Source of the DNA: Bradymonas sediminis
Lineage (GTDB): Bacteria > Myxococcota_A > Bradymonadia > Bradymonadales > Bradymonadaceae
Length of the DNA: 64,000 nucleotides
Reading direction: 5' to 3'
Assembly (NCBI RefSeq): GCF_003258315.1
Contig: NZ_CP030032.1
Span: forward strand, 3,660,501-3,724,500
Positions 19,442 to 22,176 of this stretch are shown here, piece by piece (position 1 is the stretch's first letter; each line of letters starts with the position of its first letter). Under the pieces are notes generated by a model, which had not been told where the DNA came from, searched no databases, and was given only the letters and a program-made list of their open reading frames with translations. The position numbers were made by a program, and so were the translations under genes.

Positions 19442-19801
19442 TCAGTTGCCTTTGCGCTCGCGCTTGCTGCGGATACGCGCGGATTTACCGCTGAGCTCAC
19501 GCAGGTAATACAGTTTCGCGCGACGCACGCGGCCAATCTTGGCCACTTCGATCTGATCGATACGCGGGCTGTGGACCGGGAAGACACGCTCAACGCCGAT
19601 GCCGCCGGCGGAGATTTTGCGCACGGTTACGGTCTCTTTGAGGCCGGCGCCGCTTCGCGCCAAGACGACGCCTTCGAAGACCTGAATACGCTCTTTAGCG
19701 CCTTCACGAATGCGGAAGTGGACGCGGACCGTATCACCGGCGCGGAATTCCGGAATGTCTTCACGAAGCTGCTGCTGTTCGATTCTATCAAGTAAGTTCA
19801 T
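19442..19801 (-). CDS. rplS: 50S ribosomal protein L19
   Basis: 119 residues, full length. L19 lies at the 30S-50S interface. Family features are [55 protein letters not shown] and the basic C-terminus [20 protein letters not shown]. It is the last gene of the rpsP-rimM-trmD-rplS operon and is followed by an intrinsic terminator. The 214-bp gap from trmD is longer than usual, leaving room for extra regulation or an internal promoter. Confidence 0.97.
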
Positions 19802-20015: not shown

Positions 20016-20702
20016 CTATGCTTTGGGGTCCAGCAGGTCGGGGCGCCGCTTGCGCGTGCGCTCCAACGCCCTGTCGCGACGCCACTGGGCGATCTTGGCG
20101 TGGTCGCCGCTCAATAGGATCTCCGGCACCTCCCTGCCCCGAAAGTCGCGCGGTCGCGTATATTGAGGGTATTCGAGGCTCGGCGCCGAAAAGCTCTCTT
20201 CGCGGATCGAATCAAAATTACCCAATACGCCCGGAATAAGCCGGGTGATCGCGTCGAGCAAGACCAGGGCGCCGGGCTCACCGCCGCTGAGCACGTAGTC
20301 GCCCAGCGAGATCTCCCGGTCAATCCACCCCTCGCGCACCCGCTCATCGACCCCCTCGTAGCGCCCGCAGGTCAAGATAAGCCCTCCGGGCTGGTCCGCC
20401 AATTCCTGGGCGAGCGCCTGGGTCAGCGGCTCTCCCTGCGGGCTCATCAGGATCCGAGTCGCCCCGGGATCCTGCTCGCGCGCGTACTCCAACGCGCCGA
20501 CCAGCGGCTCGGGCTTCATCAACATCCCCGCGCCGCCACCGTAGGGAAGATCGTCGGTCTTGCGATGGCGATCGGTCGCGAACTCCCGAATGTCGACCAA
20601 CGCATATTCGACCAACTCTTTTTCTTGCGCGCGCCCCAAAATACTGGTCGACAAGGGCGACTCAAAGAACTCGGGGAAGATTGTCAGGAGCTGGAACTTC
20701 AC
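20016..20702 (-). CDS. trmD: tRNA (guanine-N1)-methyltransferase TrmD
   Basis: 228 residues with a GTG start (GTGAAGTTCCAG) at 20702. It methylates G37 of tRNAs using S-adenosylmethionine, preventing +1 frameshifts. Visible features: the N-terminal [20 protein letters not shown], the SAM-binding trefoil-knot segments [15 protein letters not shown] and [13 protein letters not shown], and the catalytic [20 protein letters not shown] followed by [11 protein letters not shown]. Its place between rimM and rplS is the standard order. Confidence 0.97.
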
Positions 20703-20755: not shown

Positions 20756-21304
20756 TCAGGGGATCTCGGTATCTTCGGGCGCCCAGATTTCCAGCGGAAA
20801 GAGCAGCACGCGCGCGCCCGGGTCGACCTCAGCGACCGCGTCTTCGATCATCGGGACCAGCAGATCTGGATACCCCGGGACCGTCACGATCATGACATCA
20901 TTGGCGCCGGTCTCCAGGAAGCCGTCAACCGTGCCGATGACTCGAAAGTCGTCGCCGTCTTCGGTCTCCAGCACCCCCACCTCAACGCCGATCAGATCGC
21001 GATAATAAAACTCGCCATCCTCAAGCTCCGGGAAGTCATCCGGGTCCACGAAGAGCTCCAAATTGGTCAGCGCTTCGGCCTCGTCTCGCCCCTCGACCTG
21101 GTCGAAGGCGAGGATGTCGAATTTGGCGGCGTGGCGCACCTTGGAGAGCATGAGCTCGGTTTCCTGGCCGGCGCGACGCACAAAAACCCGAAACCCCGGC
21201 TCAAGCAGCTCGGAGGTCGGGTTCAATGGGAAAAAGCGAATCTCCCCGCGCACGCCGTGCGCGCGGCCCAATGTGCCGATCTGAATGCGTTCGTTCTCTT
21301 TAAT
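20756..21304 (-). CDS. rimM: 16S rRNA processing protein RimM, apparent AUU start
   Basis: About 182 residues. RimM assists maturation of the 30S head and binds S19. The N-terminal signature IQIGTLGRAHGVRGEIRFFP lies upstream of the first conventional start (TTG at 21271, inside the signature). Reading back, the frame stays open to a TGA at 21314-21316 with no ATG, GTG or TTG before that TTG. ATT at 21302-21304 sits six bases after GAGGT (21311-21315), ideal Shine-Dalgarno spacing, and gives (M)KENERIQIGTLG. I therefore propose AUU initiation, known for infC. The C-terminal PRC-barrel half follows (DLIGVEVGVLETEDGDDF). A start-codon mutation or sequence error is the alternative. Confidence 0.88.
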   Translation of the reverse strand: MKENERIQIGTLGRAHGVRGEIRFFPLNPTSELLEPGFRVFVRRAGQETELMLSKVRHAAKFDILAFDQVEGRDEAEALTNLELFVDPDDFPELEDGEFYYRDLIGVEVGVLETEDGDDFRVIGTVDGFLETGANDVMIVTVPGYPDLLVPMIEDAVAEVDPGARVLLFPLEIWAPEDTEIP

Positions 21305-21320
21305 AACTCTACCTCAACGG

Positions 21321-21360
21321 TTTTCAGGCCCTATGGATCACGATCCGTAGGGCCTGAAAA
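21321..21360 (-). promoter_or_regulatory. Hairpin in the rpsP-rimM spacer
   Basis: The arms TTTTCAGGCCCTA (21321-21333) and TAGGGCCTGAAAA (21348-21360) pair perfectly for 13 bp, and an internal GGAT/ATCC extends the stem. In the minus direction it is followed by CCG and then the rimM Shine-Dalgarno, with no U-tract, so it is not a typical terminator. It starts 33 bp after the rpsP stop and could lower rimM expression or protect the rpsP mRNA end. Confidence 0.75.
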
Positions 21361-21393
21361 TCAAGGAAGAAGCGCCCGAGGGCGCTCATTCAC

Positions 21394-21954
21394 TTATTCT
21401 TTTGCGTCGTCAGCGGCCGGCTCTTCAGCGGCGGCTTCGGCTGCGGGAGCCTCAGCTTCGGCCGGAGCGGCTTCTTCTTTGGCAGCTTCAGCAGCTTCGG
21501 CTTTCTTGGCCTCTTCAGCGGCTTTGGCGGCAGCGGCGGCTTCGGCTTTCTTGGCCTCTTCAGCAGCTTTGGCTTCGGCTTCTTTGGCAGCTTTAGCGGC
21601 CTTTGCAGCTTCAGCGGCTTTGGCGCGCATTTCTTTTTGGGCTTCGAGCTTGCTGGCGGCTTTGGCCTTGCGCGCAGCCTTGTCGGCTCCTTCCACGCTA
21701 AGGTCAACCACGTCGCCGCGACGCATTCTGCGCACGAGCGAACCAACGGTCTCGGAGGGTTGAGCACCCACGCCAATCCAATACTCAACGCGCTCGCTAT
21801 TCATACGAACAACGGGCGGATCTTGGAGCGGGTCATAGGTGCCGAGAAGTTCAATAAAGCGACCGTCACGCGAATTGCGCTGATCGGTGGCTACAACACG
21901 GTAGTGAGGACGCTTCTTCGCGCCGTGGCGCTGCAGTCTGAGTCGTACGGACAT
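21394..21954 (-). CDS. rpsP: 30S ribosomal protein S16 with a long Ala/Lys/Glu tail
   Basis: 186 residues from the ATG at 21954, preceded by AGGAT; the longer open frame has no support. Residues 1-85 are a normal S16 (SVRLRLQRHGAKKRPHYRVV, GRFIELLGTYDP, ERVEYWIGVGAQPSETV). The remaining 100 residues are an Ala/Lys/Glu-rich helical tail with AAKAAEEAKKAEA-type repeats, ending in an acidic Pro/Ala/Glu stretch. Most S16 proteins stop near residue 80-90. The tail probably projects from the ribosome and is prone to repeat-length change. First gene of the operon, behind the promoter at 22177-22205. Confidence 0.95.
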   Translation of the reverse strand: MSVRLRLQRHGAKKRPHYRVVATDQRNSRDGRFIELLGTYDPLQDPPVVRMNSERVEYWIGVGAQPSETVGSLVRRMRRGDVVDLSVEGADKAARKAKAASKLEAQKEMRAKAAEAAKAAKAAKEAEAKAAEEAKKAEAAAAAKAAEEAKKAEAAEAAKEEAAPAEAEAPAAEAAAEEPAADDAKE

Positions 21955-22176
21955 CGTTATCCTGGGTCGTCTTTTAGAAAAGCTAAATTGGTGCACATCG
22001 CCCGCAATCATTGTGTCGGACAACGCTCTATATCGACAAATGGTAAATCGAGCCATTAATAAATTGGCTGGCCAGGATTACCATTGGCAACCCTCGCTAT
22101 CGACTAACCACACTATTCAAATCTAATACGCATCAATTCTGACGCCCCGCATTTCCGGGACGTTCAAAGAGCGCGA

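Follow-up and report, generated by a model that had tools for sequence, protein, structure and literature searches.

Probable initiation of rimM at an AUU codon behind a structured rpsP-rimM spacer in Bradymonas sediminis

The rimM gene of Bradymonas sediminis FA350, a marine predator belonging to the order Bradymonadales (PMC7188933), very probably starts at an AUU codon, at positions 21304-21302 on the minus strand of the window (the whole 64,000-nucleotide stretch of this genome that was analysed). This start is likely because the codon falls in the initiator-Met column of related RimM proteins, has the best Shine-Dalgarno, and leaves no canonical alternative that would keep the first conserved strand. 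For the locus as a whole, the explanation we favour, and consider likely, is an AUU-initiated rimM behind a structured spacer, with an inefficient start that IF3 would discriminate against.

The genome is complete, at 5,045,683 bases, and carries a single rimM copy; NCBIfam profiles assign the order rpsP, rimM, trmD, rplS on the minus strand (Table 1). Translated from its upstream end, the rimM frame reaches 119.5 bits with TIGR02273 (cut-off 66.2) and 51.1 bits with Pfam PF01782 (cut-off 23.5), and with these curated cut-offs exceeded and the gene in its rpsP-rimM-trmD-rplS operon position we assign the product to RimM. The closest relative by RimM is G010 (genome of 8,047,206 bases, probably Persicimonas caeni), whose protein is 59% identical over residues 3-182, with no internal stops. 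A gene conserved over its full length without stops is a maintained gene, which must therefore start somewhere. The rpsP product carries a long C-terminal tail rich in Ala, Lys and Glu, and the tails seen in G010 and in another family member, G012, resemble it.

Table 1. Features of the rpsP-rimM-trmD-rplS locus, in window coordinates.
Feature	Coordinates	Strand	Evidence
rpsP (bS16), long Ala/Lys/Glu-rich tail, directly upstream of rimM	21394..21957	-	S16 profiles
Possible 21-codon upstream ORF across both hairpins, ATG 21389 to TGA 21326-21324	21324..21389	-	Mechanical ORF only
Small G+C-rich hairpin after rpsP stop, then pyrimidine stretch able to pair with rimM Shine-Dalgarno	21371..21386	-	Fold
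13-bp perfect hairpin with short inner stem, not followed by a T run	21321..21360	-	Fold, shuffles
TGA closing rimM frame upstream	21314..21316	-	Sequence
GAGGT Shine-Dalgarno, 6 bases before ATT	21311..21315	-	16S tail duplex -7.0 kcal/mol
ATT, proposed rimM start codon	21302..21304	-	Aligned with initiator Met of G010, G004
TTG, first canonical in-frame start, 11 codons downstream of ATT; judged ordinary Leu codon	21269..21271	-	Weak Shine-Dalgarno, inside IGTLGRAHG
rimM CDS, proposed AUU to stop codon	20756..21304	-	TIGR02273 E 9.5e-35; Pfam RimM
trmD, GTG start	20016..20702	-	TIGR00088
rplS (bL19), ATG start	19442..19801	-	TIGR01024

The sequence-only reading had described a RimM signature upstream of any ATG, GTG or TTG, in a frame closed by TGA and with an ATT six bases after GAGGT, and all of its coordinates proved correct on the minus strand. 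No ATG, GTG or TTG occurs in the rimM frame between the TGA at 21316-21314 and the TTG at 21271, and the codons after ATT read AAA GAG AAC GAA CGC ATT CAG ATC GGC ACA up to that TTG. When the N-terminus is aligned with that of G010 (MADRELIQTGTFGRAHG here against IKENERIQIGTLGRAHG in the relative), ATT occupies the column in which both G010 and G004 (loci L082 and L096) have their initiator Met, nine codons before the Gly of the GxxGRxHG motif, as in G010. This spacing is typical of the family (rimM matched in 19 of 21 genomes), with a canonical start 7-11 codons before the motif Gly at 16 of the 18 other loci and the exceptions being G007, with a start at 18 codons, and G012, with a TTG at 20. 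The N-terminus predicted from ATT would be (M)KENERIQIGTLGR. The duplex with the 16S tail (the genome has five 16S 3' ends with CCTCC) is estimated at -7.0 kcal/mol for ATT as against -2.9 for a later ATT, -2.9 for an ATC and -1.7 for the TTG. On the opposing side, a Shine-Dalgarno of -7.0 kcal/mol or better precedes 5.7% of 3000 random window positions. The rimM gene has no canonical start compatible with its conserved N-terminus, and has an AUU with a Shine-Dalgarno at the homologous position, which leaves the proposed AUU start well supported.

A conventional annotation would place the start at the internal TTG, which is the first canonical in-frame start and the one chosen by mechanical ORF listing, giving a RimM that lacks its first 11 residues and begins MGRAHGVRG... 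We consider this very unlikely, as the Shine-Dalgarno energy there is so low and as the TTG sits within the conserved IGTLGRAHG segment, at a position occupied by Phe, Leu, Ile or Val across the family. A start at this codon would delete the I-Q-I-G-T segment, which is covered wholly or partly by RimM profiles and solved RimM chains, and this therefore counts for AUU. Upstream of the TTG position, a canonical start is present at each of the 18 other family loci (in G012 only a poor TTG), and none of the relatives compared begins at the internal TTG.

The AUU could also be an artefact of sequencing or assembly, with ATG as the true codon or an indel concealing an upstream start, since one substitution would be enough and the case comes from a single genome of a single strain. 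We give this reading hardly any credence: the complete genome was assembled from both Illumina and PacBio data (PMC7460792), ATT matches the Met column with no indel needed, and canonical starts are likewise absent from the two infC genes in this assembly, as they are in several relatives.

Among relatives, such a start is rare. In the class sample (57 genomes searched, of which 51 had a rimM match and G001, G020, G029, G039, G044 and G053 had none; 50 loci analysed, as 30 + 20, with the G054 match left out), a canonical start lies between the frame-closing stop and the GxxGRxHG motif at 49 of 50 loci, the exception being this genome. A canonical start also precedes the motif at all 80 loci from genome_contigs, taken as the best 80 of 545 confirmed relatives, which is a narrow control because these are mostly Pseudomonas. 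The rimM of E. coli starts at ATG, and a limited literature search on rimM start codons returned no report of a non-canonical one. Neither this AUU nor this hairpin is itself conserved in any of the relatives compared. In G012 (L095, 1426-1490), the only canonical candidate is a TTG located 20 codons upstream of the motif, inside a hairpin and with no Shine-Dalgarno (+1.1 kcal/mol), while ATT and ATC come straight behind that hairpin, where the Shine-Dalgarno is weak (-3.2 kcal/mol), and the gene follows a 60-base structured spacer. The G012 gene may thus represent a second, independent AUU or AUC start, judging from its sequence, and it is not included in the count above.

The proposed start is preceded by a strong hairpin, as the sequence-only reading had it, and its strength turned out to exceed what had been stated. 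For the spacer between rpsP and rimM (21393-21305), the folding energy is -46.3 kcal/mol, with a z of -6.59 and none of 200 shuffles equally stable, and a larger stretch (21396-21265) still gives a z of -4.84. The earlier placement of a 13-bp hairpin 5 nt upstream of the Shine-Dalgarno holds for the inverted repeat, a perfect 13-bp match with arms at 21360-21348 and 21333-21321, but not for the predicted fold, which extends further by pairing CCUUGA (21366-21361) with UUGAGG (21317-21312), so that the Shine-Dalgarno is mostly paired in the model. Across three sequence contexts, the mean probability of being unpaired is 0.21-0.32 for GAGGT and 0.81-0.87 for ATT. Such a mostly paired Shine-Dalgarno argues against strong use of the ATT site, although this pairing does not go beyond shuffles: with the start region fixed and the upstream sequence shuffled, GAGGT was closed as much in 113 of 300 cases. 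In these folding models, then, the spacer hairpin is real, and the predicted burial of the Shine-Dalgarno in particular is not beyond chance.

Other roles for the spacer were considered. An intrinsic terminator is ruled out in this direction because no T run follows the stem, and neither spacer hairpin was called in the terminator scan. The hairpin is not a dispersed repeat either (the significant matches were confined to the element and its inverted arm, all others having E-values of 0.44 or worse), and the promoter scan yielded none inside the rpsP-rimM spacer. Alternatively, the upstream ORF of Table 1 might be translated by ribosomes re-initiating after rpsP, which would melt the hairpins and deliver ribosomes to the AUU in a form of leader-peptide coupling. 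The geometry is suitable, with an ATG 4 bases after the rpsP TAA, a stop 19 bases before ATT and both hairpins spanned, yet the ORF has no notable Shine-Dalgarno and an open frame of 21 codons is possible by chance, which makes this coupling quite unlikely in our view.

The comparison with the family adds the loss of a gene as context to the original observation. In relatives, khpA, which encodes a KH-domain RNA-binding protein, lies between rpsP and rimM, and at all 18 other family loci a gene for such a KhpA-like protein ends directly before rimM. In this genome khpA was found neither with the family model (best match 22.6 bits, below the cut-off of 32.1) nor with the G010 protein as query (best E-value 0.033); the same model recognised KhpA of the two relatives G010 and G012, at 46.5 and 48.6 bits. 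With no match above the cut-off, a relocation of khpA elsewhere in the genome is rejected. The khpA-rimM gap is at most 38 bases at 15 of the 18 loci and reaches 58 bases in G007, 60 in G012 and 97 in G003, counted from mechanically chosen starts (G012 being set to ATC, and the starts of G013 and G009 differing from those used in the start-codon count). Each of these three long gaps is structured, with z values of -2.9 in G007, -5.4 in G012 and -3.5 in G003. Our reading is that a rimM separated from its preceding gene acquires a structured leader, and that here, with khpA gone, this leader carries an AUU start. The loss of khpA would account for the separate spacer and initiation site of this rimM, the structured spacer presumably replacing the close khpA-rimM junction of relatives.

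AUU is a start codon against which IF3 discriminates, as for E. coli infC and pcnB (PMC9410913; for pcnB, Binns and Masters 2002 as cited there), and IF3 is described as excluding weak third-base pairs (PMC10158994). In the present genome, two infC paralogs occur (G000:C1:2675685-2676185, L129, and G000:C1:1016478-1016972, L135, G000 being this genome), and neither frame has a canonical start. G010 likewise has two infC genes. Over 19 genomes, 7 of 21 infC loci lack any canonical start, and several others have one only far upstream; AUU or AUC initiation therefore appears at home in this lineage. This is not a feature common to 30S maturation genes, since rbfA, which encodes another 30S maturation factor, starts here at ATG.

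With the proposed start, the initiator tRNA would begin rimM at AUU by way of GAGGU, after the structured spacer. Being inefficient and IF3-discriminated like those of infC and pcnB, this start would keep RimM well below bS16 and bL19, and the hairpin might lower initiation further or isolate rimM from ribosomes finishing rpsP. We infer the low RimM level relative to bS16 and bL19, as well as the sensitivity to IF3, from the literature on AUU and IF3 and on the E. coli rimM mRNA, whose own structure limits its translation (Wikstrom et al. 1992, described in PMC5318159). Non-canonical starts also gave lower protein yields in S. aureus reporters (PMC13009471). That the weak start limits RimM seems somewhat probable from this analysis, whereas physiological control of rimM by the IF3 level would be a tentative proposal, plausible because both infC copies are without canonical starts. 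Both effects had been put forward in the sequence-only reading, which is supported in part.

Each known system resembles this rimM in part. As in infC, a non-canonical AUY start stands on a translation-machinery gene, but infC encodes IF3 itself and is thereby autoregulated, whereas control of rimM would be cross-regulation. E. coli pcnB is likewise a non-infC gene limited by AUU, though a different one, while rimM here combines AUU with a hairpin. Streptomyces sigR, with its GTC start repressed by IF3 (PMC5472188), shows that IF3 can control a gene other than infC through the start codon; there the codon is GTC, the product is a sigma factor and the control was shown by experiment, whereas for rimM it would be a matter of analogy. 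For E. coli rimM, gene and operon are the same and translation is attributed to mRNA structure.

Another view is that AUU is a tolerated mutation in a low-demand gene and the hairpin a processing or stability element, for instance a site for RNase III or a barrier shielding the end of rpsP, with no regulatory role for IF3. This would fit the single clear case among 50 class loci, the structured spacers that also precede ATG-started rimM in G003 and G007, and a Shine-Dalgarno burial not beyond shuffles. Conversely, one transversion would let selection restore ATG, and conservation over the full length indicates that RimM matters. On balance, we regard the chances of this view as about even.

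At the other extreme, one may speculate about a start-codon homeostat built from RimM and IF3, in which RimM shortage would let immature 30S particles accumulate and hold IF3, free IF3 would drop, AUU discrimination would relax, and both infC and rimM would be translated more until 30S maturation is restored. Loss of khpA would have freed rimM from its close upstream junction and let it join infC-type control, with G012, whose AUU or AUC candidate follows an unrelated hairpin, as an independent second case. RimM shortage would relax AUU discrimination because immature 30S particles of the E. coli delta-rimM strain hold more IF3, as reported in PMC13246957, a study in which IF3 levels were also raised. 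We consider such a homeostat unlikely.

With the AUU-initiated rimM as the preferred reading, rimM is probably a further gene to which a known mechanism applies, in an uncommon use of an AUU start whose regulatory meaning would be attractive. Outside infC, few genes naturally start at AUU, the examples in the literature cited here being E. coli pcnB and S. aureus cvfC1 (PMC9410913, PMC13009471). Gene callers restricted to ATG, GTG and TTG would truncate this RimM inside its first conserved segment. If true, an AUU on the gene of a ribosome-maturation factor would tie the assembly of 30S subunits to the proofreading of start codons, and the E. coli delta-rimM work hints at such a connection from the other side (PMC13246957).
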